Source: Janthinobacterium tructae (GTDB lineage: Bacteria > Pseudomonadota > Gammaproteobacteria > Burkholderiales > Burkholderiaceae_D). From it: DNA of 64,000 bases. The position numbers and the translations under genes are program-made. The stretch is taken from positions 3,596,001 through 3,660,000 of the forward strand of contig NZ_CP041185.1 in NCBI RefSeq assembly GCF_006517255.1, read 5' to 3'. Every line of letters begins with the position of its first letter. Position 1 is the first letter of the stretch. The notes under the pieces were generated by a model. That model made no database searches. It was not told the origin of the DNA and saw only the letters and a list, made by a program, of their open reading frames with translations. Positions 54,818 through 64,000 of this stretch are shown one piece after another.

Positions 54818-56158
54818 TTACTTGTCGAGCAAGGCGTTGACGGGCATCAAATCCGTTTCCTTCAGGGTGCCGGCCGCGGCTTTCAGGCGCAAGCCGTTCA
54901 TGATGGTGTCGTAGCGCGCCTTCGACAGGTCTTTTTGCGTCGAGAACAATTGTTTCTGTGCATTCAACACGTCGATATTGATGCGCACGCCCACCTGGTA
55001 ACCGAGCTGGTTCGACTCCAGCGCCGATTTGCTCGACACTTCCGCCGCTTCCAGCGCCTTGACTTGCGCCAGGCCGCTGTTGACGCCCAGGAAAGCCTGG
55101 CGCGCACCCTGCGATGCCGTGCGGCGTGCCGTTTCCAGGTCGTTGCGGGCCTTGTTTTCCAGCGCGATCGATTCGCGCACCTTGCTGGTGACGGCAAAAC
55201 CGCTGAAGATCGGGATGCTCCACTGCACGCCGATGGCGTTATTGTTGTTGCCGTTGCCATTGCCGCCACCGGATGTGTAGCTATGGCCAGCGTTGGCGAT
55301 CAGGTCCAGGGTCGGGTAGTGGCCGGCGCGGTTGCGGCCAATGTCGCGCTTGGCCGATTCCACATTGAACTGCGCCGTGACGACGCCGTAGTTCTGCTCT
55401 TCGGCGGACGCCACCCACGGCTCGACGGCAGCCGGTTCGGGCGCGCTGATGACCACGCCCGTGCGCATCGGCGCCAGCGACGTTGGCGCTTCGCCGATGA
55501 TGGTTTGCAAGGCGCTGCGCTTGTTGGCCAGGTCATTGATGGCGGCAAATTCCTGCGCCACCACCAGGTCGTAGGCCGCTTGCGCTTCGTGCGTGTCGGT
55601 GATCGTTTGCGTGCCGACTTCGAAGTTGCGCTTGGCCGATGCCAGCTGCTCCGTCGTGGCCACTTTTTGCGCCTGCGTGGCGCCCAGGTTGTCTTGCGCG
55701 CTGAGCACGTCGAAATACGCCTGCGCCACGCGCGTGATCAGGTCTTGCTGGACTTGCGCAAATTGCGCTTCAGCAATCGCTTGCGCCAGCTTGCTTTGCT
55801 GGTAGGTTTCCCAACGGTCCCAGCGGAACAGCGGTTGCGCCAGGGTCAGGTTGTAGCTGTTTGTGCGCACGTTGACGGACGGCGAGGTGATCTTGTTGCC
55901 GCCATTGTTCTGGACGATTTGCTCCTGATTGCCGCGCGTATTGCTGCCCGACGCGGAGATTTGCGGCAGCAAGCCAGCCATCCCCTGCGGAACCCGCTCC
56001 ATCCCGGCCGACAGCGCCGCGCGCGCACTGGCGTACTGCGCGTCATTGGCCAGCGCCTGCTGGTACACCTGGATGAGATCGGCCGCCTGCGCTTGCAGCG
56101 TGCATGTCATCGAGACAAAGGCGCTGGTCATCAGCACGGCGATAAGGGGTTTCCGCAT
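54818..56158 (-). CDS. tolC: TolC family outer-membrane efflux channel
   Basis: A 446-residue outer-membrane protein with a signal peptide (about 1-25, ending LQAQA) and the two OEP repeats of TolC-type trimeric channels: DLIQVYQQALANDAQYASARA at the start of the first and NYGVVTAQFNVESAKRDIGRNRAGHYPTLDL in the second. A Gly/Asn-rich loop (SYTSGGGNGNGNNNN) lies at an extracellular turn. It forms the exit duct for tripartite pumps and type I secretion. It follows the PIMT-like and rhodanese genes, a conserved betaproteobacterial neighbourhood. Confidence 0.92.
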   Translation of the reverse strand: MRKPLIAVLMTSAFVSMTCTLQAQAADLIQVYQQALANDAQYASARAALSAGMERVPQGMAGLLPQISASGSNTRGNQEQIVQNNGGNKITSPSVNVRTNSYNLTLAQPLFRWDRWETYQQSKLAQAIAEAQFAQVQQDLITRVAQAYFDVLSAQDNLGATQAQKVATTEQLASAKRNFEVGTQTITDTHEAQAAYDLVVAQEFAAINDLANKRSALQTIIGEAPTSLAPMRTGVVISAPEPAAVEPWVASAEEQNYGVVTAQFNVESAKRDIGRNRAGHYPTLDLIANAGHSYTSGGGNGNGNNNNAIGVQWSIPIFSGFAVTSKVRESIALENKARNDLETARRTASQGARQAFLGVNSGLAQVKALEAAEVSSKSALESNQLGYQVGVRINIDVLNAQKQLFSTQKDLSKARYDTIMNGLRLKAAAGTLKETDLMPVNALLDK

Positions 56159-58355: not shown

Positions 58356-60746
58356 TCAATCGCGCAAGGCTTGCGCCGGCGCCATGCGCATGGCCAACCA
58401 GGTGTGCCGCACGGTGGCCAGTAGCGCCACCAGCATGGCCAGCAGCAATGCCACCGCCAGCGGCCAGGCGCCCACCGGCGCGCGTTCGACAAAGCCGGCC
58501 AGGTAGCGCGCGATGCCCAGGGCCGCCAGCGGCAGGCCCAATACGGCACCGGCGGCCAGCAGCAGCATGAACTCGCGCCCCACCAGGCGGGCGATGGCGG
58601 CGCGGCCAGCGCCATGCAACTTGCGCAGCACAATTTCACGGCTGCGGCGCTGCACGCTGTAGGCCGACAGCACGTAAATGCCGAAGGCGGCGAGCAGCAT
58701 GGCGATCAGGCTGGCCAGGCCGAGCATGCGCGCCAGGCGCAGATCCTCGGCATACATCTGTGCCAACAGGCTTTGCGCCGTGCGCAGTTCCAGCATCCGC
58801 TGCGGAAAATAGCGCCGCCACAGCGGCTCGATACGCGCATGCGCCGCTGCCACATCATCATTGCTGCGCAAGGACAGTGCGCCGCCGTGGCGCAAATCGA
58901 ACAGCATCGGCTGGGCCGCCTGGCGCATGTCCTGGAAACGGATCGGCGGCGCGATGCCGATAATCACCTGCCCGTCCGGCATCGCCTGCCCCACAGCAGC
59001 CTGCGGCGTGGGATAACCCAGCGCCAGCGCCGCCGCCGCATTGAGCACCACCACCTGGCTGCCGATCCGGTCCTGCGCCACATCGAACAATCGCCCGTGC
59101 AAGGGCACGATGCGGTGCAGCGCAAACCAGCCCGGCGTCATGGGTTTGTATTCGAGGCGCACGTCGCGCCCATCGCGCGTCCTGACGCTGCCGACGACCT
59201 TACTGCCATCGCGCCCGACCGCTTCCGCGATGCCCGCCACGCCGGCGATGCCGGGCAGGCGCGCCAGCGCCTCTTCGAAGGCGCGCGCCTGCGGGCTGTC
59301 TTCGCTCCCGGGCGGCAAATCCAGCACCAGCAAGCCATCCGGCGTGAAGCCGGGCGAGGCGTGGCTGCCATACCAGGATTGCCAGCCGACCGCCAGGGTC
59401 GCGGCGCACAGCGCCATGGCGGCGCCGAACTGCAATACCGTCAGCACGCGGCGCAGCCACAGGCCAGTCGCTGTTTCGCTGTTGCCGCGGCCCGCCAGCG
59501 CGGGACCGGGCCGCACGTGCAGCGCACACCAGGCGGGATAGGCGCCCGCACACAAGCCCGTGAGCACGCCAAACAGCAAGGCGCCGGCGCAGCGCCAGGC
59601 GGTGAACATATCGTCCAGCGGCCGCTGTACCAGCTCGGCGAAGAGCGGCAGCGCCAGCCAGGCCAGCAGCAAGCCCGCGGCGGCGGCCAGCAGCGCCGTC
59701 AGCACCGACTCGGCCAGGAACTGCTGCACCAGGCGCGCCGCACCGGCGCCGAGCAGCTTGCGCACGCCGATCTCGCGCTGGCGGCGCAAGGTGCGCACCG
59801 TGGACAGATTCACGTAATTGATGACGGCCAGGGCAAGTATCAGCAGCGCCAGCACGGCCAGTCCCACCACGCTGGCGCGCTGCCCGTGACGCGCCGCCGC
59901 GCGGCTGTGGTACAGGTCCGCATCGAAGTAAGCCTGCGCCAGCGGCAGCAGCGCGATGTCGGTGACGTTGCGCCCCGCGAGCGCGCGGCCCATGGATGCG
60001 CCGCGCACCTGCCGGTCTTGCGGCGAGTCGTTGACGGCCTGCTGCAGCAGCGCCGCAAGCGCGCCGGGGTCTGCGCCGGGGCGCAGCTGCAGGTAGATGG
60101 CGCCGCGCCCCGTGCCGGAAAAAGCGACCTCGCGCTGCGCTGCCGGCCAGGCACTGCTGAGCGTGCCCACCAGTACTTCATACGGCACGCTGGTGTTGCG
60201 CTGATGGTCAGGCAGGATGGCGCGCACCTTCAGCGTGACGCCGCCGATCTGCAGCAGCTGGCCCAGCGCGGATGCGTCGGCAAACAGCTTGCGCGCCGCC
60301 GTCTGCGTCAGCGCCACGGCATCGGGCTGCGCCAGCGCCGAACGCAGATCGCCCTGCAGCGCCGTGATGCCGAACAGGCTGGCGAAATCCGCATCGACTG
60401 CTTGCACGTTCAGCGCATACGGGCGCTCGCCGCGCTGCACGGTTAAATCAAGTTCCTTGACGATGCTCGCCATGCCGACCGCGCCGCTGCGCTGCGCCAC
60501 GTCGCGCAGCGACAGATAGGCAAAGTTCTGCCACTCGGGGCGGATGAACAGATTGATGCGCTGCTTGACCAGCAGCACGCGCTCACGCTGCGGCACCTGG
60601 CTATCGTAGCCCAGGCTGTAGCCGACAAAGCCCAGCAGCAGGAAGCAGGCGGCGAAACCCACCGCCAGGCCCAGGATGACGGCCGCCGAGGCGCCCCGCT
60701 GCTGCGCCAGCAGGCGCCAGCCGATGCGGAAATCGGCCGCCTTCAT
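58356..60746 (-). CDS. ABC transporter permease, MacB/FtsX-type, two-module
   Basis: A 796-residue membrane protein with two MacB_PCD + FtsX units in tandem: transmembrane helix 1 (about 20-45), a periplasmic domain (45-275), three helices (about 285-400), a fifth helix near 430, a second periplasmic domain (450-660) and a last three helices (about 670-795). NYVNLSTVRTLRRQREIGVRKLLGAGAARLVQQFLAES and VQRRSREIVLRKLHGAGRAAIARLVGREF are the paired FtsX coupling motifs. It overlaps its ATPase gene by 4 nt. Likely exports or mechanically pulls a periplasmic substrate such as a peptide or lipid; cargo unknown. Confidence 0.88.
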   Translation of the reverse strand: MKAADFRIGWRLLAQQRGASAAVILGLAVGFAACFLLLGFVGYSLGYDSQVPQRERVLLVKQRINLFIRPEWQNFAYLSLRDVAQRSGAVGMASIVKELDLTVQRGERPYALNVQAVDADFASLFGITALQGDLRSALAQPDAVALTQTAARKLFADASALGQLLQIGGVTLKVRAILPDHQRNTSVPYEVLVGTLSSAWPAAQREVAFSGTGRGAIYLQLRPGADPGALAALLQQAVNDSPQDRQVRGASMGRALAGRNVTDIALLPLAQAYFDADLYHSRAAARHGQRASVVGLAVLALLILALAVINYVNLSTVRTLRRQREIGVRKLLGAGAARLVQQFLAESVLTALLAAAAGLLLAWLALPLFAELVQRPLDDMFTAWRCAGALLFGVLTGLCAGAYPAWCALHVRPGPALAGRGNSETATGLWLRRVLTVLQFGAAMALCAATLAVGWQSWYGSHASPGFTPDGLLVLDLPPGSEDSPQARAFEEALARLPGIAGVAGIAEAVGRDGSKVVGSVRTRDGRDVRLEYKPMTPGWFALHRIVPLHGRLFDVAQDRIGSQVVVLNAAAALALGYPTPQAAVGQAMPDGQVIIGIAPPIRFQDMRQAAQPMLFDLRHGGALSLRSNDDVAAAHARIEPLWRRYFPQRMLELRTAQSLLAQMYAEDLRLARMLGLASLIAMLLAAFGIYVLSAYSVQRRSREIVLRKLHGAGRAAIARLVGREFMLLLAAGAVLGLPLAALGIARYLAGFVERAPVGAWPLAVALLLAMLVALLATVRHTWLAMRMAPAQALRD

Positions 60747-61423
60747 GCGGCTTGCAAGGCGTCGACCATGACGCGACCATCCAGCAAGTGCAGGGTACGT
60801 GACGCCTGCGCCGCATGGTCGGGCGAGTGCGTCACCATCACCACCGTCGTGCCCTCCGCATTGATGCTGCGCAGCAGGCGCATGACTTCATTGCCGTGCG
60901 CCGTATCGAGGTTGCCCGTCGGCTCATCGGCCAGCAAGACGGCCGGCCCGGCCACCAGCGCGCGCGCGATCGCCACGCGCTGCTGCTGGCCGCCCGACAG
61001 CTGCGACGGCCGGTGTCCGGCGCGGTGCGCCACACCCAGCTTGTCGAGCATGGCGGCCACGCGCTGGCGCCGTTCGCGCGCCGGCGTGCCGTTGTACTCG
61101 AGCGCCAGCTCCACGTTCTCGAATACGCTCAGTTCCTCGATCAGGTTGAAGCTCTGGAAGATGAAGCCGATGCGCCCGCGGCGCAGCGCATTGAGCTTTG
61201 CCTCGCTCCATCCTGCCACATTCTGGCCCTCGAACCAGTATTCGCCATGGCTGGGAATATCGAGCAATCCCAGCAGACCCAGCAGGGTAGATTTACCGCA
61301 GCCCGAGGGGCCAGTGATGGCCACATATTCGCCCGCCTCGATCTCGAGGTCGATGCGATCCAGGGCCTTGGTCTGGATATCGCCTGACTGATGCATCTTG
61401 CTGACGCCGACTAGTTTGAGCAT
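60743..61423 (-). CDS. ABC transporter ATP-binding protein, MacB/LolD-type
   Basis: A 226-residue ATPase with Walker A GPSGCGKS at residues 38-45, signature LSGGQQQRVAIARAL, Walker B VLLADEPTGNLD and the switch His in VMVTHSPDHAAQA. The DEPTGNLD motif places it in the LolD/MacB/FtsE group, matching the FtsX-type permease it overlaps. It lies 31 bp downstream of the adaptor gene, with which it forms one operon. Confidence 0.92.
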   Translation of the reverse strand: MLKLVGVSKMHQSGDIQTKALDRIDLEIEAGEYVAITGPSGCGKSTLLGLLGLLDIPSHGEYWFEGQNVAGWSEAKLNALRRGRIGFIFQSFNLIEELSVFENVELALEYNGTPARERRQRVAAMLDKLGVAHRAGHRPSQLSGGQQQRVAIARALVAGPAVLLADEPTGNLDTAHGNEVMRLLRSINAEGTTVVMVTHSPDHAAQASRTLHLLDGRVMVDALQAA

Positions 61424-61454: not shown

Positions 61455-62750
61455 TTACCGGCTTATGTGCAATCTGGGGGAATTTCCATAGGCAGCGTAG
61501 GCCGACAGGATCACGCGCTCGCCTGCCTGCAGCCCTTGCAGCACTTCGAGCTGGCTGTTGTTGCGCCGGCCGATACGCACTGCGCGCCGCTGCGCCTGGC
61601 CGCCGGACGCATCGAGCACGTAGACCCAGGCGCCGCCGCTGTCGTTGATGAAGGCGCCGTTCGGCAGCAGCAGCGCGGCAGCCGGCTCGCCCAGAGTGAT
61701 CTGCGCATCGAGGCTTTGCCCGGGATTGAGCACGGGCGGCTGGCCGTGCGTGAACACCAGTTCCACAGTGAAGCGGCCCTCCTTGATCTGCGGATAAATC
61801 GTCTGCACGCTCAATGCGTAATTTTGCCCAGCCTGGACGATGCTGGCCTGCCGTCCCGCCGCCATGCGGTTCAGGTAAAACTCGTCCACCCTGGCCGACA
61901 GCTTATAGCGCACAGGGTCGTCGATGCGGCCCACATTCTTGCCCGTCGCGATAGACTCGCCCACCTGCAGCCGGAAGTCCGTCAGCCGGCCGGCGGACGG
62001 CGCGCGCACGGCCAGGGCGTCGACCGTGGCACCGACCAGCAGCAAGCCCGAACTGAGGCCGGCGATGGACGCGCCAAGCTGGCTGGCCGCATCGCGGCGC
62101 ACCAGCGACTCCGCCTGCGCCGCCTGCTGTTCCTGCGCCAGCGCGCGCTGCTGCTGCAGCAGCGTGTCGGCCGATTCCTCCAGCGCCACGCTGGAAATGA
62201 AGCCCTGCGCCGCCAGCCTGACATTGCGCGCATGCTGCTTGCCACCCTGCTGCAGCGCGAACGCCAGATCATCCAGGCGGCGTTGATGCTCGCTGGTGCT
62301 GGCCTGCTGCGCCACGCGCAAATTGGACAAGTTGAAAATCTGCTGCGCATGTTCAGCCTTGCGGGCCAGCAGTTCCAGGTTGCGCTGCGGATTGGAGATA
62401 CGGAACAGCAGCTGGCCCTTGCTCACCAGTGCGCCATCACTGGCAAGCACCTCTTCGATGCGGCCCGACTCGACCGAATCGAGGAGCACGGAATGCAGCG
62501 GTTCGGCGCTGGCGCGCACCACCACTTCATCGAGAAAAATACCGCGCGCCACGGCGCCGATGCGCAATTCGGCGACAGGCACCTGCAAGCCGCGTGGCAT
62601 GGCCCACCAGCCCGCCGCGGCAAGCGCGGCCAGCAACAGCATGCCCGCCAGGCTGGCAACGACAAGTTTGCGCCGGCTGCGCGGCACGCGCGTATCCATG
62701 GCGGCGCCGCTGGACGGCAAATGGGGCATGGCAGATTGAGGAGCATGCAT
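61455..62750 (-). CDS. HlyD/MacA-type periplasmic adaptor protein
   Basis: About 431 residues: a short cytoplasmic lead, a transmembrane anchor (about 28-48 in KLVVASLAGMLLLAALAAAGWW), then the membrane-fusion-protein fold with lipoyl-like halves (VESGRIEEVLASDGALVSKGQLLFRISNP; LAVRAPSAGRLTDFRLQVGESI) around a helical hairpin, and a beta-barrel domain. It links the ABC permease to an outer-membrane duct, plausibly a TolC-type protein. Start is uncertain: ATG at 62750 is used; a GTG at 62762 and an ATG at 62699 are alternatives. A consensus sigma-54 promoter lies upstream. Confidence 0.85.
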   Translation of the reverse strand: MHAPQSAMPHLPSSGAAMDTRVPRSRRKLVVASLAGMLLLAALAAAGWWAMPRGLQVPVAELRIGAVARGIFLDEVVVRASAEPLHSVLLDSVESGRIEEVLASDGALVSKGQLLFRISNPQRNLELLARKAEHAQQIFNLSNLRVAQQASTSEHQRRLDDLAFALQQGGKQHARNVRLAAQGFISSVALEESADTLLQQQRALAQEQQAAQAESLVRRDAASQLGASIAGLSSGLLLVGATVDALAVRAPSAGRLTDFRLQVGESIATGKNVGRIDDPVRYKLSARVDEFYLNRMAAGRQASIVQAGQNYALSVQTIYPQIKEGRFTVELVFTHGQPPVLNPGQSLDAQITLGEPAAALLLPNGAFINDSGGAWVYVLDASGGQAQRRAVRIGRRNNSQLEVLQGLQAGERVILSAYAAYGNSPRLHISR

Positions 62751-62791
62751 ATTTATTTTCACGTCTTTCGAACAAAGTTTCTTCGCATATC

Positions 62792-62807
62792 AGCAAGCAG
62801 CGTGCCA
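62792..62807 (-). promoter_or_regulatory. Sigma-54 promoter of the adaptor-ABC exporter operon
   Basis: On the minus strand TGGCACG (62807-62801), four bases, TTGCT (62796-62792): an exact match to the -24/-12 consensus TGGCACG-N4-TTGCW. Transcription would begin near 62781, about 30 nt before the adaptor ATG. The divergent gene encodes a sigma-54 activator. Confidence 0.88.
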
Positions 62808-62870
62808 GCAACGGGCGCCACGCGGACATGCGCCCCGCAGCCGTTCGCCAAGCATGCTGGCGCGACGCGG

Positions 62871-62896
62871 TGTCCCGCAGTGTCCATTTCCGGACA
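62871..62896. promoter_or_regulatory. Candidate upstream activating site for the sigma-54 regulator
   Basis: TGTCC at 62871-62875 and 62881-62885 as a 10-bp-phased direct repeat, with GGACA at 62892-62896 forming the inverted repeat TGTCC-N6-GGACA. It lies about 90 bp upstream of the -12 element, the usual range for enhancer sites of sigma-54 activators. Confidence 0.5.
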
Positions 62897-62998
62897 GCGG
62901 CTGTTCGCAAGCGCACAGCGCCGGCAAACAGGCATGCCCACAGCGGCCGCCACGACGCCAGCACGGCTGCTAGAATGCGCCACCGACCGACGCTCACT

Positions 62999-64000
62999 AT
63001 GCTCTCCATGGCCAACACCGCAGCCCACGTCCTGATCCTCGACGACGATATCGATGTCGCCTGCGCCGCACAGCTGCTGCTGCGGCGGCGCTATCGCGAC
63101 GGCAAAGTCGATACGCTGTGCGACCCTGCAGGACTGCCCGCGCTGCTGGCCCGGGCGGTGCCGGACGTGGTGCTGCTCGACCTCAATTTCCAGCCCGGCC
63201 AGACCGATGGCGCACAAGGCTTGGCCTTGCTCGACCTGCTGCGCGCGCTGCCACGGCCGCCTTGCGTGATCGCCATGACGGCCTATGCCGATGTGCCGCT
63301 GGCGGTGGCGGCGCTGCAGCGCGGCGCCAGCGACTTCATCACCAAGCCCTGGGACAACGCGCGCCTGGCCGCCGCCGTCGAACATGCGCTGGCGCGCCGC
63401 GCCGACACGGCCGCCACAGCCACTGCCGCGCCGGACCTGATGGGCAACTCTCCGGCCATGCGCGAGCTGCGCGCGATGGTCGCCAGCGTCGGCCCCACGG
63501 AGGCGAATGTGATGGTGCTCGGTGAAAACGGCGTCGGCAAGGAACTCGTGGCGCGCGCCCTGCACAAGGCCTCGCGCCGCGCCGCCGGTCCCATGCTGGC
63601 GGTGGACATGGGCGCCGTGCCGGAGGCAACCTTTGAAAGCGAATTGTTCGGCCACCGCAAAGGCGCATTCACCGATGCCAAACATGAACGCGCGGGGCGC
63701 TTCCAGACGGCGCGCGGCGGCTCGCTCTTTCTCGATGAAATCGGCAACCTGCCGCTGGCGGCGCAAGCCAAGCTGTTGACGGCGCTGGAACGGCGCGAAG
63801 TGACGCCGCTGGGCGCGGACCGTCCGGAAGCGATCGACGTGCGCATCCTCAGCGCCACCAATATCGATGAAGCGCGGCTGTTCGATCCGGCCGTGTTCCG
63901 GCCCGACCTGCTGTTCCGCCTGAATACCATCGTGCTGCGCGTGCCGCCGCTGCGCGCGCGCCGCGACGATATCGCCATGCTGTTGCGGCACTACCTGGCG
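62999..64000 (+). CDS. Sigma-54-dependent response regulator (3' end outside window)
   Basis: The first 334 residues of an NtrC-type regulator. Receiver domain: acidic pocket in LILDDDID, phospho-acceptor Asp61 (LLDLNF), Thr94 (MTAY) and Lys116 (TKPW). AAA+ domain: Walker A GENGVGKE from residue 175, sigma-54 contact loop GAFTDA at 222-227 (usual form GAFTGA), Walker B SLFLDEIGNL, and the arginine-finger region FRPDLLFRLN. The C-terminal HTH lies beyond the window. Two starts (62999, 63008) are possible. It is divergent from the sigma-54-promoted exporter operon, which it most likely activates; a cognate sensor kinase is not in the window. Confidence 0.92.
   Translation, partial: MLSMANTAAHVLILDDDIDVACAAQLLLRRRYRDGKVDTLCDPAGLPALLARAVPDVVLLDLNFQPGQTDGAQGLALLDLLRALPRPPCVIAMTAYADVPLAVAALQRGASDFITKPWDNARLAAAVEHALARRADTAATATAAPDLMGNSPAMRELRAMVASVGPTEANVMVLGENGVGKELVARALHKASRRAAGPMLAVDMGAVPEATFESELFGHRKGAFTDAKHERAGRFQTARGGSLFLDEIGNLPLAAQAKLLTALERREVTPLGADRPEAIDVRILSATNIDEARLFDPAVFRPDLLFRLNTIVLRVPPLRARRDDIAMLLRHYLA

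Follow-up and report, generated by a model that had tools for sequence, protein, structure and literature searches.

Promoters of sigma-54 RNA polymerase share the consensus TGGCAYR-N4-TTGCW, with its conserved GG and GC, and the transcript usually starts at a distance of 12 bp. Among the NtrC-type two-component regulators is GlrR/QseF of the Enterobacteriaceae. MacB has four membrane helices per chain, and R-x3-L-x6-S is the hairpin-tip motif of TolC-dependent tripartite pumps. Bce modules are systems of the Firmicutes that are not known to involve an adaptor or sigma-54. They (BceRS-BceAB) are described as pairing a kinase devoid of a sensing domain with the ABC transporter that it regulates, a transporter said to lack membrane transport capability (PMC10314905). 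The binding site of QseF/GlrR is given as TGTCN10GACA (PMC8745638). Sigma-54 sites at COG0577 permeases and COG1136 ATPases are described in a motif-based survey, which presents them as the first evidence linking sigma-54 to FtsX-like/antimicrobial-peptide ABC transporters (PMC12316311).

The locus considered here lies in the window, the whole 64,000-nucleotide stretch of Janthinobacterium tructae DNA that was analysed. Direct reading places a divergent gap (62751-62998) between the ATG of an adaptor gene at 62750 on the minus strand and that of a response regulator gene at 62999 on the plus strand (Table 1). Comparison with related loci makes it very probable that a split exporter, MacB-like and probably dependent on TolC, is driven from this gap by a two-component system of NtrC type, via a sigma-54 promoter and a tandem enhancer. 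On the exporter strand (62807-62792) the gap contains TGGCACG-CTGC-TTGCT, which agrees with the sigma-54 consensus at 12 of 12 positions, as an earlier sequence-only reading of this DNA had claimed, and is the sole zero-mismatch box within the 64 kb. Simulation of 300 sequences keeping the window's base-pair steps (first-order) gave a chance expectation for such an exact box of 0.077 per 64 kb, or about 0.0003 per 248-bp gap, and yielded no tandem palindrome pairs. Boxes with at most one mismatch show no excess over chance in the window (4 observed, 3.9 expected); the match in one genome, taken alone, is therefore suggestive, and the argument leans on conservation. With the usual 12-bp distance, the exporter transcript is predicted to start at about 62781.

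The sequence-only reading had further noted TGTCC/GGACA repeats about 90 bp upstream of the promoter. All are present (TGTCC at 62871-62875 and 62881-62885, GGACA at 62892-62896), and the distance from palindrome to -24 box measures 89 bp. Its placing of the enhancer at 62871-62896 needs correction: the conserved unit consists of two tandem palindromes, 62881-62917, each of 16 bp and of the form TGTNC-N6-GNACA. The TGTCC direct repeat was discarded as the enhancer unit because it is not conserved, the half-site at 62871 occurring, among 11 loci of the genus, only in the window genome and its closest relative (L011). The tandem palindrome pair occurs once in the whole 6.31-Mb genome, and the palindrome-plus-promoter pattern once at a gap of 58-88 bp and nowhere at a gap of 28-58 bp.

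Table 1. Features of the exporter locus and its regulatory region, in window coordinates unless a contig is named.
Feature	Position	Strand	Remarks
TolC-type outer-membrane channel	54818..56158	-	plausible exit duct, outside the regulated unit
ABC permease	58356..60746	-	796 aa; two MacB_PCD and two FtsX stretches; 8 long helices in model
ABC ATPase, DarD/MacB/LolD-like	60743..61423	-	226 aa
Periplasmic adaptor, HlyD/RND_mfp type (HlyD_3)	61455..62750	-	431 aa from ATG; alternative GTG at 62762
Sigma-54 -24/-12 promoter, TGGCACGCTGCTTGCT	62792..62807	-	12/12 match; predicted, serves exporter operon
Extra TGTCC half-site	62871..62875	+	repeat of the earlier reading
Enhancer palindrome 1, TGTCC-N6-GGACA	62881..62896		conserved in relatives; predicted enhancer
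Enhancer palindrome 2, weaker copy, TGTTCGCAAGCGCACA on + strand	62902..62917		starts 21 bp after copy 1
NtrC-type response regulator (receiver, AAA+ with GAFTDA, Fis-type HTH)	62999..64000	+	453 aa; continues to C1:3660360
Histidine kinase	C1:3660350-3661597 (= 64350-65597)	+	415 aa; overlaps regulator end, outside window

Conservation was assessed through an adaptor alignment scan of named genomes, of which the best 80 of 96 loci were kept. These are spread over Janthinobacterium, Duganella, Rugamonas, Pseudoduganella, Massilia, Undibacterium and MAGs, and among these best 80, regulator, kinase, ATPase and at least one permease occur at 65 loci, with at least two permeases at 26. Six of the 11 genus loci were added, five being omitted as duplicates of named ones, to give 86 loci, 85 of them distinct with L015 and L106 taken as one genome. 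A box of at least 10/12 is found at 83 of the 86 adaptor loci (at least 11/12 at 79) and box plus tandem palindromes, 21-24 bp apart and each scoring at least 7/10, at 81, counts that overstate independence because related species share ancestry; L067 and L094 have the box and no palindrome pair. Under the same rule, box plus pair was found in none of 1998 random 440-bp windows from the 80 named loci, the box itself reaching at least 10/12 in 78 and at least 11/12 in 1. Across 83 relatives the box positions, partly fixed by the 10/12 selection, are kept while the spacer varies. At the loci that lack a box (L101, L110, L020) the regulator is also absent nearby, and at L101, L110 and in genome G013 the exporter exists without the switch of box and palindromes.

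The distance of the proximal palindrome from the -24 box falls into classes of 45-46, 55-57, 65-69 and 77 bp, with single values of 80, 89, 99, 103 and 113 bp. Rayleigh values on the raw spacings are not the main argument, because they reflect mainly one dominant class. Each of the 81 loci was paired with its nearest relative by adaptor identity, L042, with equal-scoring pairs at 46/67 and 67/91, having been set by hand to 67 beforehand. Spacing differs in 29 distinct nearest-relative pairs: by 1 bp in 12, by 9-13 bp in 15, and by 22 and 32 bp in the remaining two, with differences of 2-8 or 14-21 bp in 0 of the 29. Among the 17 pairs whose difference exceeds 1 bp, phase is concentrated at 10.5 bp (R=0.84, nominal p ~7e-6, nearest-neighbour pairs sharing members and so not being fully independent). 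The window genome and the 97%-identical G019 have spacings of 89 vs 99 bp, exactly 10 bp apart. These spacings support a constraint of the enhancer-promoter distance in helical register. Regulon targets elsewhere in the genomes have their proximal palindrome at 35-36, 45-47, 54-57 or 67 bp, and L148 and L158 have one palindrome only, at 59 and 68 bp.

The exporter had been read as MacB-like, a likeness that holds with the correction that it is split, having a separate ATPase and a permease resembling two fused MacB halves. The permease carries the MacB periplasmic core (PF12704) and the C-terminal FtsX fold (PF02687), two stretches of each, and its model has MacB chains among the top PDB matches, BceB also appearing among the structural matches. 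It departs from MacB in that ATPase and permease are separate open reading frames (60743-61423 and 58356-60746) rather than one polypeptide, and in having eight long helices, counted by eye from the predicted structure, in two repeats; as modelled, it is shaped like two fused MacB halves. The best NCBIfam matches of adaptor and ATPase are DarC (167 of 450 bits) and DarD (254.8 of 375 bits, MacB being next), both short of the cutoff, and the permease scores 278.8 of 622.3 bits against the ADOP duplicated permease TIGR03434, below the curated cutoff. Residues R175, L179 and S186 of the adaptor, which form the hairpin-tip motif of TolC-dependent pumps, are invariant in 11/11 sequences, and a stricter regex for this motif matches 64 of 81. 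The exporter probably uses TolC. A TolC gene adjoins the exporter in the same-genus stretches L021 and L022 and was not detected beside it in the other eight fetched. The local TolC gene was therefore rejected as a member of the regulated unit, being exporter-adjacent in only 2 of 10 other same-genus stretches.

On the other side of the gap, the sigma-54 response regulator named by the sequence-only reading is indeed NtrC-type, with receiver, sigma-54 AAA+ and Fis-type HTH domains (PF00072, PF00158, PF02954), the domain set of the NtrC family. Its GAFTDA loop is a tolerated variant of GAFTGA, and the form G[AS]FTDA is found in the aligned stretches of 68 of 70 related regulators, the pattern being unmatched in two. 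GAFTDA and GSFTGA stand among the loop variants said to keep activity, in a list from which GSFTDA is absent (PMC4641369). The strict phosphorylation-site pattern VVLLD[LM]NF is matched by 49 of the 70. NCBIfam GlrR gives 238 of 763 bits for the part of the regulator that lies in the window, 334 of 453 residues. Inspection of the genes past 64000, where that reading would have a sensor kinase sought, revealed the histidine kinase gene overlapping the regulator end. In the window genome the kinase gene is followed by a gene for a DUF2807 (head GIN) protein (L009:11773-12636), a relative of which lies near in L021 and L022.

Hydropathy reveals two hydrophobic core segments in the window's own kinase, and among 69 kinases there are, at the threshold applied, two such segments at most 12 residues apart in 50, one in 15 and none in 4. 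The model of the L031 ortholog contains a hairpin, in which a short turn connects helices 2-30 and 34-58, and also a PAS-like domain. The kinase appears to have two membrane helices without a periplasmic domain, the topology of Bce-type kinases, which lack an extracytoplasmic domain. Sensing in or at the membrane is therefore indicated, possibly through the transporter, by analogy with what is proposed for Bce modules. A refinement of the two-component reading would make the exporter itself the sensor, the kinase, without sensing of its own, reporting transporter cycling in a Bce-like manner. This may be entertained tentatively: the kinase begins with a membrane hairpin, the permease belongs to the MacB/FtsX superfamily with BceB among its matches, and Bce modules join a kinase of this kind to such a transporter (PMC10314905), but the PAS-like domain could sense in the cytoplasm, the genus genomes have one to three permeases each against one regulator match, and the Bce transporter's stated want of transport capability (PMC10314905) is unlike the proposed exporter.

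The link from regulator to exporter, drawn in the sequence-only reading, is well supported by comparison, as regulator, enhancer and exporter co-occur and the enhancer is retained on split operons. Of 40 Janthinobacterium genomes, 11 possess the adaptor and the same 11 the permease. A box of at least 11/12 precedes 10 of the 11 adaptors (8 exact; none at L020/G013), and the regulator (E<=1e-110) is found in 10 of the 40 genomes, exactly those with a switch-bearing adaptor; in G013, the eleventh, there is neither switch nor regulator, the latter being absent genome-wide. In 267 genomes of the family outside the genus, with the five best regulator candidates scored per genome, the pattern (28-58 bp gap) is present in 42, the regulator in 46 and both in 34, an association with a Fisher p of 2.5e-25, uncorrected for ancestry. 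Eight of the 42 pattern-positive genomes have no regulator at the threshold used, and 12 of the 46 regulator-positive ones no pattern in the searched spacing range. A backwards-read control pattern gave 0 matches in 294 genomes at the 28-58 bp gap and 0 at 58-88 bp, and a backwards-read tandem-palindrome control matched in one genome (G022). Pattern matches alone are no proof of membership, because exporter-unrelated sites also match within the genus. At the 28-58 bp gap such genes are matched in 8 of 27 genomes (G004, G005, G006, G013, G014, G026, G036, G037; regulator present in G014 and G037). At 58-88 bp, 16 of 40 genomes match, in 10 of them at the exporter or its dispersed parts, and seven matches lie elsewhere (G004, G005, G010, G012, G015, G031, G036).

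This co-inheritance bears on the alternative that box and palindromes are real, with another NtrC-family regulator binding the enhancer and the adjacent one controlling something else. The window genome does hold further stretches similar to the regulator gene, and a similar palindrome-plus-box arrangement exists in G104 and G271, both without this regulator. The alternative is nonetheless highly improbable, as the profiles of regulator and switch are the same in the genus and correlated in the family, the relocated regulator in the split systems of G003 and G019 sits divergent from another switch copy, and the palindrome pairs of G104 and G271, 20 bp apart and at 70 and 60 bp respectively, do not resemble the main spacing classes. 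The latter sites (L162, L166) were rejected as regulon members, the regulator not being found and the palindromes being 20 bp apart; they possibly belong to a sister regulator with another spacing rule. One of the two precedes an M28 peptidase. Palindrome-plus-sigma-54-like sites were also seen at L123, L125 and L172 (TGTACG..CGTACA; TGTTCGTTAACGCACA; TGTTCG..CTCGAACA), of a type that recurs in same-genus genomes, mostly without this regulator.

Beyond the family, 300 genomes sampled across the order yielded the adaptor (E<=1e-60) in six, two of them of the own family. Three belong to another family, f21 (L221-L223); in these the divergent arrangement of the genes is unchanged, palindromes are present and the box reaches 11/12. 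In the distant G428 gene order is again the same, with adaptor and regulator 35% and 47% identical; its gap has no box of 11/12, TGTTCGATTTCGGACA and TGGTATGGTTGCTGCA being present by eye.

The sequence-only reading had also proposed a self-contained circuit. Regulator, enhancer and exporter are indeed linked, but some relatives have the regulated genes at other places in the genome. In G003 the exporter is broken up into a lone adaptor, a lone ATPase and two lone permeases. A third permease shares an operon with a SIMPL-domain (DUF541) protein, and the regulator-kinase pair is divergent from this operon; a palindrome pair and a sigma-54 box precede every one of the exporter pieces. The SIMPL-domain gene (L168:7264-7977) is the first behind the switch beside the regulator, before the permease. 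In G032 adaptor and permease each stand alone, both with box and palindromes; the regulator is found on a third contig. Two genomes with a dispersed exporter also have, close to the orphan adaptor and in opposite orientation to it, a gene for a DegP/HtrA-like protease (L023:8737-10191, domains checked; L024:10837-12306). At the G019 locus equivalent to the one in the window, adaptor and permease remain, most of the ATPase is lost and the regulator-kinase pair is gone; the ATPase has shrunk to a 115-aa ORF (L021:7624-7971). That efflux is constitutive, the gap elements being inherited yet unused in the window genome, is scarcely credible: G019 proves that decay occurs, but its second locus (C1:673k) keeps regulator, ATPase, permease and switch, each of the five genes in the window genome is an open reading frame, its box there is perfect, and a scan of 62700-63050, weak in that only 0.1 is expected by chance, found no sigma-70-like promoter.

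The switch also precedes other genes. Twenty target regions were fetched, of which six are the exporter operon itself (L150, L156, L163, L164, L165, L167) and L162 and L166 were dropped. In Duganella-like genomes it stands before lone permeases (L149, L151, L158, L161), in a single case (L154) before a beta-lactamase-family serine hydrolase, and at seven loci (L148, L152, L153, L155, L157, L159, L160) before a 342-351-aa HAF-repeat protein, identified from two of the seven loci scanned against NCBIfam. In seven Duganella-like genomes this protein is a candidate cargo or partner of the exporter. The protein (TIGR02913/DUF3466; L148:4473-5510 and the six other loci) has no evident signal peptide, and by eye it shows a C-terminal hydrophobic stretch and a basic tail. 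A DUF3466 protein is mentioned among GlyGly-CTERM proteins (PMC3237569).

With regard to cargo, the switchless exporter relative of G013, its adaptor 52% identical, is situated inside a nonribosomal peptide cluster (L030:1188-17956) with genes for a nonribosomal peptide synthetase, penicillin amidase, CmlA-like hydroxylase, thioesterase and phosphopantetheinyl transferase. This cluster and the DarC/DarD resemblance suggest a peptide-like cargo, most likely natural products of that kind or antimicrobials; the basis is a single gene cluster together with family scores that stay below their cutoffs.

Taken together, the preferred reading would run as follows. An envelope or membrane signal would activate the NtrC-family system of membrane-hairpin kinase and G[AS]FTDA regulator, and the phosphorylated regulator would assemble on the two 16-bp palindromes. 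DNA looping that keeps a fixed helical register would then connect it with the sigma-54 RNA polymerase at 62792-62807. Transcription of the divergent adaptor-ATPase-permease operon would follow, the operon products forming a TolC-dependent, MacB-like exporter of peptide-like natural products or antimicrobials. Promoter, enhancer, co-inheritance, register constraint and kinase topology are supported by the sequence comparisons; phosphorylation, direct binding, looping, TolC use, cargo class and the nature of the signal are what we infer. A bolder and rather unlikely proposal is a Gram-negative, sigma-54 counterpart of Bce, in which a kinase devoid of a periplasmic sensing domain would read the working state of a tripartite peptide exporter, and its NtrC-type regulator would coordinate one adaptor, one ATPase and dispersed, interchangeable permeases through phased enhancers. 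If true, the permease would be an exchangeable specificity part, and a near-identical, helically phased enhancer would replace the operon.

The two-component reading proposes a regulator-operator pair for an exporter of Oxalobacteraceae genera and of sampled relatives elsewhere in the order. The locus offers a natural experiment in which enhancer-promoter spacing drifts across many species in steps of about one helical turn and the gene set fragments while its pieces keep the enhancer. In other genomes the operator can serve to locate pump components that are missing, as well as candidates for co-acting proteins, and this makes the hunt for inducer and cargo directly testable.

The components are of known types, while the specific regulator, operator, register constraint and dispersed regulon are absent from the literature searched. 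By title and abstract start, that literature contained no study of this system in these genera, the motif-based survey being nearest. The survey has in common with the window exporter the proposed sigma-54 control of FtsX-like ABC systems; the taxa named there are gamma-Proteobacteria, Opitutia and Bacteroidia, neither HlyD nor Oxalobacter nor Burkholderiales turned up when its main text was searched by word, and the portions drawn on here hold no description of the enhancer, regulator, register constraint or dispersal of the window system (PMC12316311). MacAB-TolC resembles the exporter in adaptor, MacB-type periplasmic domain, FtsX core and probable TolC exit, but in the solved chains MacB is one chain including the ATPase, whereas the window exporter has a separate ATPase and, as modelled, a permease of two repeats and 8 helices. 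The darobactin exporter likewise combines an adaptor and a separate ATPase, and DarC and DarD are the best NCBIfam matches, although the window scores fall far under the cutoffs. Bce modules share the kinase without a sensing domain, paired with an ABC transporter that it regulates (PMC10314905), but these modules belong to the Firmicutes and are not known to involve an adaptor or sigma-54, and for the window system sensing through the transporter is a tentative proposal. Finally, a TGTC...GACA palindrome is common to GlrR/QseF (PMC8745638) and the window system; the latter differs in the form TGTC-N8-GACA, in the tandem arrangement at 21-24 bp and in having an exporter as predicted target.
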